Assembly: GCF_014193675.1 (NCBI RefSeq)
Contig: NZ_BLXZ01000008.1
Location: 124,001 to 188,000 of the forward strand
Reading direction: 5' to 3'
Length of the DNA stretch: 64,000 nt
Source of the DNA: Geomonas limicola
Lineage (GTDB): Bacteria > Desulfobacterota > Desulfuromonadia > Geobacterales > Geobacteraceae
Both the position numbers and the translations under genes were made by a program. The notes below the pieces were generated by a model. The model had not been told where the DNA came from, made no database searches, and worked only from the letters and a program-made list of their open reading frames with translations. Each line of letters starts with the position of its first letter. The first letter of the stretch is position 1. This document shows, piece by piece, positions 8,922-16,172 of the stretch.

Positions 8922-9731
8922 TCAGTCGAAGTAGTAGTAGAGCGCGAGCCCGCCACGGAAACCGGCGACGGACTGTTGACGGAACTCGCCGATGCTGCGG
9001 CGCGACTGCTGCAGAAAGGCCCCGGAAGGGAGCAGGTAGAGGTTCTTCCTCAGCTGGAGGTAGGCACCCAGTTCGGCAGCATAATCCTCGGCCGGCGTGC
9101 GCAGGTCGGCCGAGGTGGCGAACTCGGCCGACAGCTTGCCGTCCAGGGTGAGGACGTGGTTCAGCTCCTTTTCGACACCAAGGACCACCTCGTGGCTGTC
9201 TGCCTCTCCCTTGGTCCGGAGGCGGGCATGGTAGTCGAAGTAGGGGATCGTCCCGGACCCCAGGCGGTAACTGGCGGAAAGCGAGGGGCTGAAGACGGTG
9301 CTGCGCTCCCCCGCACCGTCCCGGGGCGCACTGTCGAAGGCGACCGCAAACCCGGCGACCACGGCTAGCGGTGCCTGCTCCGGGAGCGGGTACCGGTACT
9401 GGAGCCCGGCGCTCAGGTCACCCATGCCGCTGCGCCGTTCCACCCCGTCTGGCGTGAGGCTGCGCTCCTTGAAAACCTGGCGCAGGGAGAGGTCGAGCTG
9501 CAGGCCGTGTCCCAGCCCGAAGCCCAGCGAGCTCACCTGGGTGTCGTCGGCCTTGCTGTAGGAACCGACGTTCTTGATGGTCGGGCGCAGAAAACTGAAC
9601 TGATAGCCGGTCTTAAGTTCGGCCTGGCCGGTGTCGAGCAGGTCGGTGACCAGGAGCTTGTGTGCGGCGTTGGCCGGCTGCGCTGCAGCCAGCAACAACG
9701 CGAGTGCTACTAAGATGCTGCCTTGTTTCAC
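8922..9731 (-). CDS. Putative outer-membrane beta-barrel protein
   Basis: 269 residues beginning at a GTG with GGAGG upstream. A signal peptide, MKQGSILVALALLLAAAQ with cleavage near NAA, is followed by alternating amphipathic strands such as AELKTGYQFSFLRP, GLQYRYPL, ATSADLRTPAEDYAAELGAY and a final GGLALYYYFD. The C-terminal aromatic-rich strand and repeated short strands fit an 8- to 12-strand barrel of the Phenol_MetA_deg/transporter type, but I cannot name a family. It is the last gene of a possible minus-strand operon with the cohesin-like lipoprotein and dockerin protein. A hairpin sits directly against its ribosome binding site (9747-9790). Confidence 0.7.
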   Translation of the reverse strand: MKQGSILVALALLLAAAQPANAAHKLLVTDLLDTGQAELKTGYQFSFLRPTIKNVGSYSKADDTQVSSLGFGLGHGLQLDLSLRQVFKERSLTPDGVERRSGMGDLSAGLQYRYPLPEQAPLAVVAGFAVAFDSAPRDGAGERSTVFSPSLSASYRLGSGTIPYFDYHARLRTKGEADSHEVVLGVEKELNHVLTLDGKLSAEFATSADLRTPAEDYAAELGAYLQLRKNLYLLPSGAFLQQSRRSIGEFRQQSVAGFRGGLALYYYFD

Positions 9732-9802: not shown

Positions 9803-11293
9803 TCAGTTGACGGTGACGGTTACCTGGGCCGGGAGTTCCGTCCCGGCGCTACTGAGGATCTTGACCCCCGTGACTGCGAAGGAACCGGCGTCAGGAGCGG
9901 AGCCCGCCGTAGCCCGGGAACAGGTGAAGGTCAGGAACGACCCTGAGCTGAAACCGGTGCCCGAGGCGATACCGAAGACGAAGGAACCCGAGCCCGGGTT
10001 GGTCTCCAACAGCGAGCCGACTGCGGCCCCGGTCAGGGTGGTGGACCCCGGATTCAGGGTGAACCCGGTGGGAAGGGAGACCGTCCCCTGAACGCCACCC
10101 AGAAGCGCAAGTCCGTTGGGAACGCTCAGGGTGACGGTGAAGCTCTGGGACGTGCTGCTGTTGAAGCTCGACAGTGTCGTCACCGCGAGGGAGAGCCCGG
10201 CGGAGAGGAGGTTGCGGTTGGCATCCAGCACCTTGACCTGCGACAGGGTGAAATCCGCGGCCGTCGGCACTGGCTGCGCGGAAGGGACGCTGCAGGTGAA
10301 GGTCAGGATGTTGCCGGAGGCAAAGCCGGTGGAGGAGAGGAGTCCGACGGTGAGGGCGCCGGCACTGGGGTTGCTGGCCAGGATGGTGCCGACCGCACCG
10401 CCGGTCAGGGCGGGGCTCCCCTGGTTCAGGGTGACGCCGGCGGGCATGGTGACGGTCCCCTGCACCCCTCCCAACTGGGCACTTCCCGGCACGCTCACGG
10501 TCACCAGCACGGTGCGGGTACCGACGTTGGCCAGGGGAGAGTTGCTGGCGTCGGTGACGCCGGTTTCGTTGTGAACGTTGCCGGTGAAGTCTGACAAGGC
10601 CCCCTTGAGCGCGTCGGCGGTGCCGCTGTTCATGGAACTCGTGGCCACGTCGATGTTGCTGGCGAGGTCGGCGAGGGTGCTCGCCAGGGACTGGCTGCCG
10701 TTATCGCGCAGCTGCGAGATGACGGCCAGGGCCAGGGTATAGGTGGCCTGGTCGGCCGAGGCGCTGTTCAGGTCCGCGGCACGGGCCGCCACCGGCTGGG
10801 TGTTGATGATATCCACCTTGAAGAGGTCGGAGACCACGTCGTTGGCAGCCTGGATGGCTTGGGGGGTATAGGCCCCCCCGGTCTTCTGCACCGCGATCTC
10901 GGTGAGTGCGGTGACCGGGAGGTTCATGTCGCCCTGGGCCTTGGGGAGCGCGGCGCGTATCGGGGCGTCCGCCGGCACCTGCAGCACGCTGCCGGTCGCC
11001 TCGTCCAGGTAGTCGCCGCTCGCCTCGGCGACCACCGGGCCGACGTAGTTCCCGAGATTCGCCGAATAGGTGCCGAAGGCGGGGTTGATGGCGGCCTGTT
11101 TGAGGAGCGCGCCGCGCTTGCCGTTCACCAGGGCGTAGAGGTTCACGGTGCCGCTGGTGAATATCCCCTTGGAGGCGATGCCGCTGATGCGGGTGGGCTG
11201 TTGCTGGGCGGCGCCGTCGTGGTAGTCGCTGCATCCGGCAGCCGACAGGCCGAAGGCCAGCAGGAGGAAGCCGATGAGTGTGCGCAGGTTCAT
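9803..11293 (-). CDS. Lipoprotein with two tandem cohesin-like domains
   Basis: 496 residues. A lipoprotein signal ends in the lipobox LSAAGC (Cys21). Residues about 35-115 form a small beta domain (ISGIASKGIFTSGTVNLYAL), and 115-245 are mostly helical. Two tandem repeats of about 110 residues follow (262-370 and 383-495), offset by 124 residues. Each begins with a strand leading to LGGVQGTV, then TGxA/GVG, an SGTGFSSG-like turn and LTFTCS, and ends with a KVLDANRN-like or KILSSAG strand. This order resembles cohesin/CARDB-type beta sandwiches that bind dockerins. The adjacent upstream gene encodes a dockerin-tailed protein, so the pair may interact on the cell surface. Cohesin identity is inference. 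Confidence 0.7.
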   Translation of the reverse strand: MNLRTLIGFLLLAFGLSAAGCSDYHDGAAQQQPTRISGIASKGIFTSGTVNLYALVNGKRGALLKQAAINPAFGTYSANLGNYVGPVVAEASGDYLDEATGSVLQVPADAPIRAALPKAQGDMNLPVTALTEIAVQKTGGAYTPQAIQAANDVVSDLFKVDIINTQPVAARAADLNSASADQATYTLALAVISQLRDNGSQSLASTLADLASNIDVATSSMNSGTADALKGALSDFTGNVHNETGVTDASNSPLANVGTRTVLVTVSVPGSAQLGGVQGTVTMPAGVTLNQGSPALTGGAVGTILASNPSAGALTVGLLSSTGFASGNILTFTCSVPSAQPVPTAADFTLSQVKVLDANRNLLSAGLSLAVTTLSSFNSSTSQSFTVTLSVPNGLALLGGVQGTVSLPTGFTLNPGSTTLTGAAVGSLLETNPGSGSFVFGIASGTGFSSGSFLTFTCSRATAGSAPDAGSFAVTGVKILSSAGTELPAQVTVTVN

Positions 11294-11330
11294 GGTCTGG
11301 GTCCTTTTCGCGAAGCTTGCCGGGGCAAGG

Positions 11331-14300
11331 CTAGAAGTTGAGCGATCCGACTGCCTTTTTCAGGATGGCCAGGGCGTCCTCGATGTCGATCACGCCGTCG
11401 GGCTGGGGGACGTTGCCCACAAGCGGCCCCACGTCGCCTACCGCCAGGTCGTCGGCGTCGGCCGTCGCGAAGCCGACGGCGATCTGCAGCGCCTTGAGGG
11501 CGTCCGCTATGTCCACCCTGCCGTCGCGGGTCAGGTCGCCGAGCATCTTCGGACGCAAAACGTTGCGCTGCACGGTGCTCACGTTGCCGGCCTGGTCGGT
11601 GGCGCGCACCGTGATGGCGTAGCTCTTGGCGCTGGGGAGGCTCAGCTGCTGGGTGAAGCTCCCGCCGGTCACCTGGGGGGTGTAGTTCTGCCCGTCCAGG
11701 GTGACGACGACCTGCGGCTGGCCGAGATCGTCGCTCACCGTGCCGACGATGGTGACGCTGGTGGCATTCACGGTGGCATCGGCTGCCGGGGAGGTGACCG
11801 CCAGCGCTGGGGTGGTGGTGTCGGAGACCACGGTGCGCTTCACGGTGGAGCTGTTGCCGGCCAGGTCGGTCGCGGTCAGGAACACGGTGTTGGTGCCGTC
11901 GGCCAGGTTGAGCGAGATCTCGAAGGCGCTGCCGGTCATGGCCGCCTGTTGGGGGGCCCCCCCGTTCACGGTCGCCGAGACCGTACCGATGTTGTCCATC
12001 TGGCCGGTGCAGGTAAGGGTGCGGCTGGAGACCACGCTGTTGTCGGCCGGGGTGTCGACGCCGATTGCCGGGGCGGTGGTGTCAAGGGTTATGCTTCGGC
12101 TGTCGGTGGTCTCGAGCCCCGCGTTGTCGACGGCGGTGATCACGAAGGTGTTGCGCCCTTCGACCATCGTCCTGGCCACCGAGAAGCCGCCGCCGGTCAC
12201 CTGGACCGGCTGGCCGTTCAGTACCAGCGACGCGATGCCGTTGAGGCTCGTGACGGTTCCGGTGAGGTTGATGGTGGCAAGCTGGGTCACCGTGCCGTCT
12301 TCCAGCGTGGAAACCGTGAGGGCCGGTGCGCTGGAGGTGTAGCCGACCACGAGCGGCTGGTTGACGCTCGCCGCGGCGCCGTAGGTCGCGTTGCCTGGCT
12401 GCGAGGCGGTGATGGTGGCGGTTCCCACCCCGACGATGGTGACGGTGGAGCCACTCACCGTGGCGACCGCCGGGTTGGAGCTCGCGTAGCTGACGGGGAG
12501 GCCGCTGTCGGCACTGGCGCTCAGGTTGAACGGCGCGTCGGTCAGGATCTTCAGGGCAAGCGGCGCAAAGGCGATGCTCTGCCCGATCTTGTCGACCTCG
12601 AGGAGCACCGTTGCCGTTGCCGAGGTGTAGTTGCCGGTGTCGGTCGGGGTGAAGGTCACACTCAGGGCCTGGGTCTGGCTCACCAGGGCGCCCGTACCCG
12701 GGGTGTAGGCGAAACTCCCGGGAAGGCTGGCTGTCGCATTCAGCTGCCGCGTGTCAAGCGAGGTGCCCGAGGGGACCGGATAGGGGGGAAGCCAGCTTAG
12801 GGCCGGCGTGGCCCTGGTGATGGTGAGGTTCGCGCCGGTGAAGGAGATCTGGTAGTTGTTGCCGGCCGCGAGGGTCCCCTGGCCGATGGCGTAGGGGCCG
12901 CCCGCCACGCTCTCGCCGGCGGCGCGGGTGAGCGCGCCGCTGATGACGCCAGCGCTGTCGCCGTTCGCCAGCCCGCTGAAGATGTAGCTCAAGGTCGGGT
13001 CGGCGGCGCCGTAGACCTTGGTCTGGGAGTTCGCGATAACGGTGAGGGTGGCTTTGTTGACGGTCACGGTGCGCTGCACCGGTGCCGCCGCGTTGTAGCC
13101 CGCATCGGCGGCCTGGTCTGCCTGGATCACGATGCTGCCGGCGGAGCCTGCACTCAGGAGCTTTCCGTTGCTCCCGCTCAGGGTGCCACTGCCGGTCCCC
13201 CCCACGATGCTGAAGATGACCGGGCTGGTGGAGGCGCCAGCAGTGACGAAGCCGGAGAGATCGAGCGCCTGGGCGCCGTAGCTTGTCGCCGGGGGCTGGG
13301 AGAAGCTGAGGCTCTGGCTCCCCTTGTTGACCGCGAAGCTCTGGGAGACCTGGGGGGCCGGGCCGTAGCTGCCGTTGCCGGCCTGATCCGCGCGGATGGT
13401 GCAGGTCCCGGTGGCGGAGAAGGATAGCTGGCCGTCGGCGGTAACCGCGCAGATGCCGGCGGTCGCCGAGCTGAAGCTCGGGGTGAGCCCGGAGGAGGTG
13501 CTGGCGTTCAGGGTCGGGGTGCTGCCGAAGCTCTGGGCGCCGGGGTTTGCAAAGGTGATGGTCTGGGCCGCTTTCGGGGTCACGCTGTTGGAGGGGGCCG
13601 AGGCGGAACCGGTGCCGGCCGTGTTGGTGGCGCTGACCGTGAAGCTGTAGCTGGTGCCGTTAGTGAGGCCGGTTACCGTAAGCGGGCTGGAGGCGCCGGT
13701 TGCCGTGGCGCCGCCGGGGCTCGCGGTCACCGTGTAGCCGGTGATGCTGGTGCCGCCGGTCGAGGCCGGCGCCGTGAAGCTGACGCTCGCCTGGGCCTCG
13801 CCTGCCGTCGCGCTGCCGATGGTCGGGGCACCCGGGACGACCGCGTTGACCGCGAAGGAGCGGGTCACGGTTGACGCCGCGAGGTAGCTGCCGTTGCCGG
13901 CCTGGTCGGCGGCGATGCTGCAGGTGCCGGCGGCGAGGAAGCTGAGCGCCCCCCCCGCGGTTACCGTGCAGACTCCGGTGGTCGAGGAGGAAAAGCTCAC
14001 GGTGAGCCCGGAGCTCGCAACGGCGCTCAGGGTCGGGGTGGTGCCGAAGTTCTGGGCGCCGGGGTTTGTGAAGGTGATGCTCTGCACTGCTTTGGGCGTC
14101 ACGCTGTTGGAGGGGGCCGAGGCGGAGCCGGTGCCGGCCGTGTTGCTGGCGCTGACCGTGAAGCTGTAGCTGGTGCCGTTAGTGAGTCCGGTTACCGTGA
14201 TCGGGCTGGAGGCGCCGGTTGCCGTGGCGCCGCCGGGGCTCGCGGTCACCGTGTAGCCGGTGATGGGGCTGCCGCCGTTTGAGCCCGGTGCCGCGAAGCT

Positions 14301-16172
14301 GACGCTCGCCTGGGCGTCGCCTGCCGTCGCGCTGCCGATGGTCGGGGCGCCGGGGACCGTGTAGATGGTCTGAGTAAGGGGAGCCGAGGTGGAGCCGTTG
14401 AAGCTGGCGTCGCCGCCGTACTGGGCGGTCAGGGTGTGACTCCCCACCGAGAGAGCCGAGCTCGAGTAACTCGCGCTGCCGCTGCCGTTGAGCGCCGCGG
14501 TCCCTAGCTGGGTGGCCCCGTCCAGGAAGGTGACGCTGCCGGTCGGGGTGCCCGAGCCGGTGACCGTCGCGGTCAGGGTCACCGAGGTCCCCTGGCTGAC
14601 GGGTGAGCCGCTGGTCGCGAGGGACGTGCTGCTGGTCTTCTTACTGACCGTGAGGGTCGCCGAGTTGGAGGTCGCCGCAGGGTTCACGCTCCCGGTGATC
14701 ACCACCCGGTAGGCGTAGCCGTTCATGGCGAGGGTGGCGCCGGCGATGCCGAGGGTCGAGGTGGTGCTGCCGCTGTAGACGCTGCCGTCGCTCAGGTTGC
14801 TGAAGCCGGAGCCGGTATCGACCTGCCACTGGTAGGTGATGCTCGATCCGGTGGCGGTGGCCGAGAAACTGGCGGTGCCGCCCAAGGTCACGCTCGCGTT
14901 GGCCGGCTGTGCGGAGATCGAGGGGGCTACCGCGCTGTCGACGAAGCTGTGCAGCCAGAGGTCGCCGGTGCGACCGTTGGGAAAGAGAACCCCCTTCGCA
15001 TGGCCGACGGCAAGCGGGGCCCCGAAGTACGAGGTGTCGTCGTAGCTGTCGCAGTAGCTCCCCCAGTCGGGGTCTGGCCAGCAGCGGTCCGAGTAGCTGT
15101 TGTCCAGCTTGGTCGCCGCCTCCAGAAGCGTGCCGCTGTTTGAGTAGCGGGCGCCGGTGGTGTAGTAGTAGTCGTAGCCGCTTACGGTGTTCACCAGGCT
15201 GTCGAAGATCATGAAGCCGCCGTCGCCCAGGGACTTGAAGCTCGGCCAGACCCCGGTGAAGCTACCCGCACTGCTCGTCGTGCCGTCAGACTGCACCTTC
15301 TTCAGCTGGTAGCTCGCGCCGCTGTTCCCGGAAAAGGCGACCATGAAGTTGCCGTCGCTGAGCCCCATGACGTTCGTATAGGGGGAGTTGCTGTAGGTAC
15401 CCAGGGCGAAGTGCTGTACGCCACCCACGGTGATCTGGGTGCCGTTGTCGCTGTAGAGGACGCCGTAGAGGTTGGCGTTGTTGTAGCAGTGCTCGGTAAT
15501 GAGGAACTGCCCGGCCTGGTTGGAGGCGATGTTGGAGGAATAGGCCGAGGAGTTGTTGCAGTTGCCTTGGCCGGTCCCCGTCTTCTGGATGGAGGTCTGC
15601 CCGGTGACGGGGGTGCCGTTGGGCTGCAGGATGCGCAGGGAATAGCTGTCCCCCGCGGTCTGGAAGGTGAAGGCGAGGTTGCCGTTGGAAAGCTCGGCCA
15701 TGTCGGTGTAGCAGTTGTACGCGTTGGTCGAGGTGTTGATCGCGGTAAACGGGGTCGTGATGACCCCCGTGGCGCTCAGGCGCAGGAACATGTACGGGTT
15801 GTTGGTGTTGTTGTCGCACCCGTTGGAGGTCCCTTCCACGGTGACGATCAGTTCGCCGTTGGCGACCGGGTAGATGGCCATGGTGGACTTGTTGTTGGCG
15901 CGCGCCCCGAGGGCTGCCGCCAGGGAGGTGTTGTACACCAGGGTGCCGTCCGAGGTGACCACCTTGACCGAGGGGGAGTTGGTGTTGGCGTTGACCAGCA
16001 TCGCGATGGTGCCGTTGCTGAGCCCCGCGACCTGGTTGGCCCCGCTTCCCCGCTGGCCGGTCAGCTTCGGCGAGCTGACGGGGTCGATGTAGTTTGCCAG
16101 GGCCGGGACTGCTGAAGCCAAAGCAAACAGGCATATCGACAAGAGGCCGATAATGAGCCTTCGTACTTCCAT
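11331..16172 (-). CDS. Giant secreted Ig/FN3 multidomain protein with C-terminal dockerin
   Basis: 1613 residues from MEVRRLIIGLLSICLFALAS (signal peptide); the start is fixed by AAGGAGG upstream. Residues about 25-410 are made of repeated LSNGN/DGNF-type units that suggest a beta-propeller with scattered Cys pairs. Then come an Ig domain (about 413-510), an Ig-like repeat with GSVTFLDG (513-600), two near-identical FN3-plus-Ig units (606-778 and 779-951), an MBG/YDG-type domain (about 1041-1121), a Big-type domain (about 1195-1280) and three bacterial Ig units with TxPAIxVxxPAD starts (1285-1540). It ends in a type I dockerin (1543-1613) with two calcium loops, GDLTRDGRVDIADAL and PDGVIDIEDAL. 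It is probably an adhesin or surface scaffold protein. The cohesin-like lipoprotein follows after 37 bases. Confidence 0.85.
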   Translation of the reverse strand: MEVRRLIIGLLSICLFALASAVPALANYIDPVSSPKLTGQRGSGANQVAGLSNGTIAMLVNANTNSPSVKVVTSDGTLVYNTSLAAALGARANNKSTMAIYPVANGELIVTVEGTSNGCDNNTNNPYMFLRLSATGVITTPFTAINTSTNAYNCYTDMAELSNGNLAFTFQTAGDSYSLRILQPNGTPVTGQTSIQKTGTGQGNCNNSSAYSSNIASNQAGQFLITEHCYNNANLYGVLYSDNGTQITVGGVQHFALGTYSNSPYTNVMGLSDGNFMVAFSGNSGASYQLKKVQSDGTTSSAGSFTGVWPSFKSLGDGGFMIFDSLVNTVSGYDYYYTTGARYSNSGTLLEAATKLDNSYSDRCWPDPDWGSYCDSYDDTSYFGAPLAVGHAKGVLFPNGRTGDLWLHSFVDSAVAPSISAQPANASVTLGGTASFSATATGSSITYQWQVDTGSGFSNLSDGSVYSGSTTSTLGIAGATLAMNGYAYRVVITGSVNPAATSNSATLTVSKKTSSTSLATSGSPVSQGTSVTLTATVTGSGTPTGSVTFLDGATQLGTAALNGSGSASYSSSALSVGSHTLTAQYGGDASFNGSTSAPLTQTIYTVPGAPTIGSATAGDAQASVSFAAPGSNGGSPITGYTVTASPGGATATGASSPITVTGLTNGTSYSFTVSASNTAGTGSASAPSNSVTPKAVQSITFTNPGAQNFGTTPTLSAVASSGLTVSFSSSTTGVCTVTAGGALSFLAAGTCSIAADQAGNGSYLAASTVTRSFAVNAVVPGAPTIGSATAGEAQASVSFTAPASTGGTSITGYTVTASPGGATATGASSPLTVTGLTNGTSYSFTVSATNTAGTGSASAPSNSVTPKAAQTITFANPGAQSFGSTPTLNASTSSGLTPSFSSATAGICAVTADGQLSFSATGTCTIRADQAGNGSYGPAPQVSQSFAVNKGSQSLSFSQPPATSYGAQALDLSGFVTAGASTSPVIFSIVGGTGSGTLSGSNGKLLSAGSAGSIVIQADQAADAGYNAAAPVQRTVTVNKATLTVIANSQTKVYGAADPTLSYIFSGLANGDSAGVISGALTRAAGESVAGGPYAIGQGTLAAGNNYQISFTGANLTITRATPALSWLPPYPVPSGTSLDTRQLNATASLPGSFAYTPGTGALVSQTQALSVTFTPTDTGNYTSATATVLLEVDKIGQSIAFAPLALKILTDAPFNLSASADSGLPVSYASSNPAVATVSGSTVTIVGVGTATITASQPGNATYGAAASVNQPLVVGYTSSAPALTVSTLEDGTVTQLATINLTGTVTSLNGIASLVLNGQPVQVTGGGFSVARTMVEGRNTFVITAVDNAGLETTDSRSITLDTTAPAIGVDTPADNSVVSSRTLTCTGQMDNIGTVSATVNGGAPQQAAMTGSAFEISLNLADGTNTVFLTATDLAGNSSTVKRTVVSDTTTPALAVTSPAADATVNATSVTIVGTVSDDLGQPQVVVTLDGQNYTPQVTGGSFTQQLSLPSAKSYAITVRATDQAGNVSTVQRNVLRPKMLGDLTRDGRVDIADALKALQIAVGFATADADDLAVGDVGPLVGNVPQPDGVIDIEDALAILKKAVGSLNF
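13320..14357 (-). repeat. Two tandem 519-bp coding repeats (FN3 + Ig-like)
   Basis: Units 13320-13838 and 13839-14357 are in register with a period of exactly 519 bases (173 codons), and long stretches are almost identical in DNA (for example 13702-13760 against 14221-14279). They encode duplicated FN3-plus-Ig units in the dockerin protein. Confidence 0.9.

Follow-up and report, generated by a model that had tools for sequence, protein, structure and literature searches.

As far as we know, the way in which large exoproteins are held at the outer surface of metal-reducing bacteria is poorly understood. In the window (the whole 64,000-nt stretch of Geomonas limicola DNA analysed here, which lies on contig C8 of a 5.23-Mb genome), a gene for a very large exported protein lies next to a gene for a lipoprotein, which raises the question of whether the lipoprotein serves as the anchor and receptor of its neighbour. 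In what follows, L-numbers designate loci and C-numbers designate contigs of the same genome. The features of the locus are listed below in window coordinates.

11331..16172, minus strand: cargo gene, 1613 aa, with its ATG at 16172; signal peptide, head, stalk and C-terminal dockerin
11334..11546, minus strand: dockerin-like module, residues ~1543-1613, assigned from the sequence, the family alignment and the profile, with the fold taken from a paralogue
11502..11537, minus strand: calcium-loop-like motif 1, DLTRDGRVDIAD, residues 1546-1557, with the canonical 12-residue spacing read directly
11376..11435, minus strand: calcium-loop-like motif 2, DVGPLVGNVPQPDGVIDIED, residues 1580-1599, which contains a conserved, family-wide insertion of ~8 residues
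9803..11293, minus strand: lipoprotein gene, 496 aa, proposed anchor and receptor
11231..11293, minus strand: lipoprotein signal peptide and lipobox LSAAGC with Cys21, read from the ORF
10580..11194, minus strand: N domain, residues 34-238, with a predicted fold like that of the PgcA non-heme domain (9i0d)
10169..10519, minus strand: predicted cohesin-fold module 1, residues 259-375, a repeat of module 2
9806..10156, minus strand: predicted cohesin-fold module 2, residues 380-496
8922..9731, minus strand: putative outer-membrane beta-barrel, 269 aa, which follows the gene pair

The exported protein and its dockerin-like module

The preliminary description of this locus had proposed a giant exported protein with a lipoprotein gene beside it on the same strand, and this holds: both open reading frames are present, the lipoprotein carries the lipobox LSAAGC, and only 37 nt separate the stop of the cargo gene from the start of the lipoprotein gene. 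The 1613-aa protein begins with a signal peptide, which is followed by a head without a Pfam match and by a stalk that Pfam resolves into I-set, Big_3_5, fn3, MBG_2 and Glucodextran_B domains.

At the C-terminus of the same protein, each of the two loops, DLTRDGRVDIAD and DVGPLVGNVPQPDGVIDIED, is followed by a helix-like segment, giving two duplicated EF-hand-like segments. The module had been described as a clear type I dockerin. The two-loop architecture, the family profile and the fold of a paralogue bear out the dockerin part of this description, but the window module, taken alone, reaches 14.7 bits against PF00404 where the Pfam cut-off is 22.9, and loop 2 exceeds the canonical 12 residues by ~8. 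The 55 dockerin-family sequences gave a good alignment, and 40 of these 55 relatives matched PF00404 (best 1.2e-7). Loop 1 is canonical in most members, and the insertion in loop 2 is kept across the family as DVAPLVxGKPxPDG. The best PDB matches of the family profile were cellulosomal dockerins, matched weakly (E 0.004). The dockerin model of the L037 paralogue superposes on solved dockerins at 1.4-1.8 Å; its residues 4-73 align with 2ccl_B at Z 9.7 and rmsd 1.4 over 62 residues with 29% identity. These results show that the dockerin identity holds at the family level. The two halves of the window dockerin are also alike (VDIADALKALQIAVG and IDIEDALAILKKAVG). In clostridial dockerins, half-to-half symmetry permits dual binding, and by analogy dual binding may be possible for the window dockerin.

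Predicted cohesin fold of the lipoprotein repeats

The C-terminal part of the lipoprotein consists of two repeats with 48% identity over 114 residues (BLAST E 5e-31), with a spacing in the fold alignment of ~121 residues, near the 124 given earlier. Pfam, NCBIfam and PDB sequence searches of the lipoprotein gave no cohesin match, nor did the sequence and profile searches of a 55-member module alignment against Pfam and PDB. The curated cut-off of PF00963 was reached neither by the window lipoprotein nor by the 55 aligned modules, and the PF00963 matches in the same genome sit at places other than the window lipoprotein.

The preliminary description had called the repeats cohesin-like and had suggested a fold comparison as the check; this comparison was run, and it did not place the repeats in a non-cohesin fold. 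In the AlphaFold2 model of the lipoprotein (pLDDT 86.8, with 41 homologues in the alignment), both repeats match cohesins. As compared with VIA-align, module 2 matched ~45 solved cohesin chains with Z 8.2-11.2, the top one being 2XDH (Z 11.2, 107 residues, 13% identity), and module 1 matched 7URP with Z 8.4. Foldseek gave module 2 a probability of 1.00 against 2XDH, though with E 6.9e-3. The model of the L037 paralogue on contig C6 agrees independently: its Foldseek cohesin matches reach E 8.7e-5, and among the VIA matches listed all come from cohesin or dockerin entries. The fold matches of the window and paralogue models span type I, II and III cohesins, and the nine-stranded jelly-roll of the cohesin fold is present in both predicted structures.

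Profile-profile comparison of the module with classical cohesins of the same order aligned 91 collinear columns at a probability of 55% (E 1.2e-4). As controls, ten profiles built from the cargo protein's own domains gave probabilities of no more than 0.7%. An intermediate sequence, L149, was matched by the module profile at 3e-9 and by Pfam Cohesin at 5.9e-4, under the cut-off. Taken together, these results place the repeats, on their predicted structure, within the cohesin fold superfamily and, on their sequence, outside PF00963.

In the L037 pair, both genes lie in one frame with a single stop codon between them, and read-through therefore gives dockerin, linker and cohesin in a single chain. 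This chain was modelled from an alignment of L037 with 17 loci that have an in-frame dockerin and module and one module-only row, with the misaligned row L131 left out. The model has a pLDDT of 84.4 and a pTM of 0.77, and residues 1-70 and ~125-253, 79% of the chain, are ordered. With d0 near 5.9 Å, we estimate that the pTM would stay near 0.55 if the dockerin were not fixed in position against the cohesin. The higher value suggests that the dockerin and the cohesin are placed together with confidence in this model, as read indirectly from the pTM and for this cognate paralogous pair.

Pairing of module and dockerin genes across genomes

A search of 58 genomes for lipoprotein homologues took no account of their neighbours, and the surrounding loci were then fetched. 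In these loci, nearly all genes with the C-terminal module lie directly downstream of a gene that ends in a dockerin. Those at L050, L052 and L093 have no dockerin pairing, and the neighbour at L055 cannot be judged since the gene is at a contig edge. At L039 a gap of 649 nt separates the dockerin gene from the module gene, and at L059 a second module gene comes after the first. None of the seven N-domain proteins without a module has a dockerin neighbour, whereas lipoproteins with a module and without the N domain are mostly paired with a dockerin, which shows that the dockerin tracks the module. L084 and L088, two N-domain proteins missed by the module profile, have a dockerin neighbour and, by eye, a diverged module. 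As a separate observation, the N domain (10580-11194 of the window, minus strand) recurs in cohesin-free lipoproteins near ftsX/ctpA-like genes at L077, L091 and L092.

A genome-wide profile count in 11 related genomes found 68 module genes and 91 dockerins. In 57 of the 68 cases a dockerin lies directly upstream on the same strand, while the chance expectation is 0.16. An adjacent partner is lacking for the remaining 11 module genes and for 34 dockerins. The training loci of the dockerin profile surround module lipoproteins, and the profile may favour paired dockerins, yet it still found these 34. The cohesin-dockerin pairing that had been proposed for the window thus recurs as a gene pair across many genomes, and the co-placed single-chain model of the paralogue points the same way. 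Ten of the 11 module genes in the G. limicola genome, which encodes 12 modules and 14 dockerins, are paired. The one module lipoprotein there without a dockerin neighbour is at L127:7058-7561 (minus strand, contig C5), and its partner, if any, is therefore encoded elsewhere. A lipobox was found in all 62 module ORFs (60 by pattern and two by eye), and heme motifs are absent from the module lipoproteins.

A search of 395 genomes of the phylum, in which a capped number of candidates per genome was scored, found the module family in at least 10, of which six belong to the order; on this count the family seems almost restricted to the Geobacterales. In a mirror-tree comparison, dockerin distances gave a partial r of 0.45 with the N domain and 0.19 with the module. 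Since the dockerin correlates better with the N domain, the comparison does not discriminate and gives no signal of dockerin-module co-evolution beyond linkage.

At several loci PF00963-type cohesins are also present on the dockerin protein adjacent to the anchor, with more dockerin proteins encoded upstream. L138 encodes an 841-aa dockerin protein, a 725-aa cohesin-dockerin protein and a 427-aa anchor, and L133 encodes a 1243-aa cohesin-cohesin-dockerin protein; further tiered loci with PF00963 cohesins are L074, L069, L063 and L087. As classed by eye, L074, L069 and L057 have upstream dockerins of the form GDCN...ADLQ or ADVQ, a sequence class different from that of the anchor-facing dockerins (DVAPL..GKPxPDG). 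By analogy, these scaffoldin-like operons are arranged as an anchoring scaffoldin with its adaptor and cargo would be, in bacteria in which no cellulosome was found.

The cargo heads in the G. limicola genome include RCC1, VPS10/BNR, NHL and DUF5122 propellers, Lcl_C domains, a MauG-type di-haem peroxidase and a multicopper oxidase. No catalytic glycoside hydrolase was found in the scanned dockerin proteins of this genome, a scan that left out the 5854-aa protein of L130. That protein is a single open frame at L130:575-18136 (plus strand, contig C2) with a dockerin at its end, and a cohesin-module lipoprotein gene comes directly after it. At L039:2673-16331 (plus strand, contig C4), three dockerin-tailed proteins surround one cohesin-module lipoprotein: an RCC1 propeller, a MauG-type di-haem cytochrome c peroxidase with two CXXCH motifs, and a multicopper oxidase.

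Two observations concern other genes. At L038:12713-15862 (minus strand, contig C9), a secretin with TPR, STN, Secretin_N and Secretin domains carries a C-terminal PF00963 cohesin, and ~6 kb away a 451-aa ORF (L038:6036-7388, minus strand) has another; most genomes of the order have PF00963 matches in frames of similar sizes. Such a cohesin-bearing secretin may be relevant to the export route of the dockerin proteins. The beta-barrel gene that follows the window pair had been put forward as a possible third component, a suggestion that we have dropped: among the fetched loci, a homologue occurs only at the closest orthologous locus (G004).

Proposed anchoring, rival readings and known systems

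In our view, the window pair most probably serves for anchoring in the manner of a non-cellulosomal cohesin-dockerin pair. The exported Ig-rich protein, made up of head, Ig-like stalk and dockerin, would dock through its C-terminal dockerin onto either cohesin-fold module of the lipoprotein, probably with calcium, and would thus be held non-covalently at a lipid-anchored receptor that combines a PgcA-like N domain with the cohesins. The receptor would probably be on the outer membrane. From the recurrent pairing and the co-placed paralogue model, we infer physical binding of the dockerin to the module; cognate specificity, an outward orientation at the cell surface, calcium dependence and a role for the head there would follow as presumptive features of the same arrangement.

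It is very improbable that the repeats represent some unrelated kind of Ig-like beta-sandwich, such as one serving as a stalk or in carbohydrate binding, whose adjacency to a dockerin gene reflects the clustering of surface-protein genes. Such clustering can happen, and Pfam gave no Cohesin match, but among the structural matches listed for the module nearly all are cohesins, and a dockerin gene directly upstream on the same strand of 57 of 68 module genes, where 0.16 would be expected, is not readily put down to clustering.

Two other readings accept the interaction and differ over its place or its specificity. The complex of modules and dockerins might act as an envelope scaffold that does not leave the periplasm, with no display at the surface. 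We regard this as unlikely; Ig-stalk proteins of such great size, whose heads are adhesin-like, propellers or oxidases, would suit the outer surface better, although both partners do have only Sec-type or lipoprotein signals, as a periplasmic scaffold would. Alternatively, any dockerin of the class may bind any module, so that the neighbouring gene is no dedicated partner. The one-to-one adjacency that recurs from locus to locus and the tiered loci with two dockerin sequence classes argue against such a shared pool, which we hold to be somewhat unlikely, while the occurrence of unpaired modules and dockerins, the absence of a co-evolution signal beyond linkage and the likeness of the dockerin signature across pairs would all fit it.

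Beyond the window, the recurrence of related gene pairs across this metal-reducing order points to a general and apparently undescribed route for fastening proteins. The literature searched, the review by Peer et al. (2009) aside, gave no account of lipoprotein cohesins in Geobacterales or of their repeated pairing. A wider proposal, which in our judgement could equally well prove right or wrong, is that Geobacterales use an unrecognised cohesin family as a general, parallel means of surface attachment, with up to ~15 cohesin lipoprotein genes per genome, most of them with dedicated dockerin cargo, and with some scaffoldin-like towers, and that adhesins, propellers and redox enzymes are displayed in this way on cells that respire solids. 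If this is true, the dockerin-tailed di-haem peroxidase would be an example of a displayed redox enzyme, and the DVAPL..GKPxPDG dockerin tag together with the cohesin-module lipoprotein receptor would name dozens of exoproteins and their partners, supplying cohesin partners that standard annotation misses. It would also mean that cohesin-dockerin pairing has been heavily multiplied outside cellulosomes, and it would offer many natural non-covalent pairs, possibly orthogonal, for surface display.

The N domain of the window lipoprotein shares its predicted fold with the non-heme domain of PgcA, an extracellular cytochrome of Geobacter sulfurreducens (9I0D, Z 12.9 over 161 residues); unlike PgcA, the module lipoproteins lack heme motifs and carry cohesin modules at their C-terminal end. 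As in the clostridial cellulosome, the cargo bears the dockerin and the anchor bears the cohesin, and adaptors with both cohesin and dockerin occur at L074, L133 and L138. The window system is nevertheless not a cellulosome: the scanned dockerin proteins have no catalytic glycoside hydrolases, the anchor is a lipid where clostridia use SLH or sortase, and the second dockerin loop is extended.

Non-cellulosomal cohesin and dockerin adhesins with Ig-like and adhesin-like domains are found in ANME archaea and their sulfate-reducing partners, and a role in attaching proteins to the cell surface has been suggested for them (PMC9012536, PMC10553843). Those proteins were found by standard domain annotation, whereas the modules of the lipoprotein receptors described here escape it, and here the gene pairing is shown statistically. 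Archaeoglobus fulgidus has a non-cellulosomal cohesin and dockerin (Bayer 1999 and Haimovitz 2008, as cited in PMC9012536). The window pair resembles this system in its predicted cohesin fold, as seen in 2XDH, and in that cohesin and dockerin are paired in a host that is no cellulose degrader. It differs in that the cohesins, unrecognised by PF00963, sit on a lipoprotein anchor and in that a single genome contains many such pairs.
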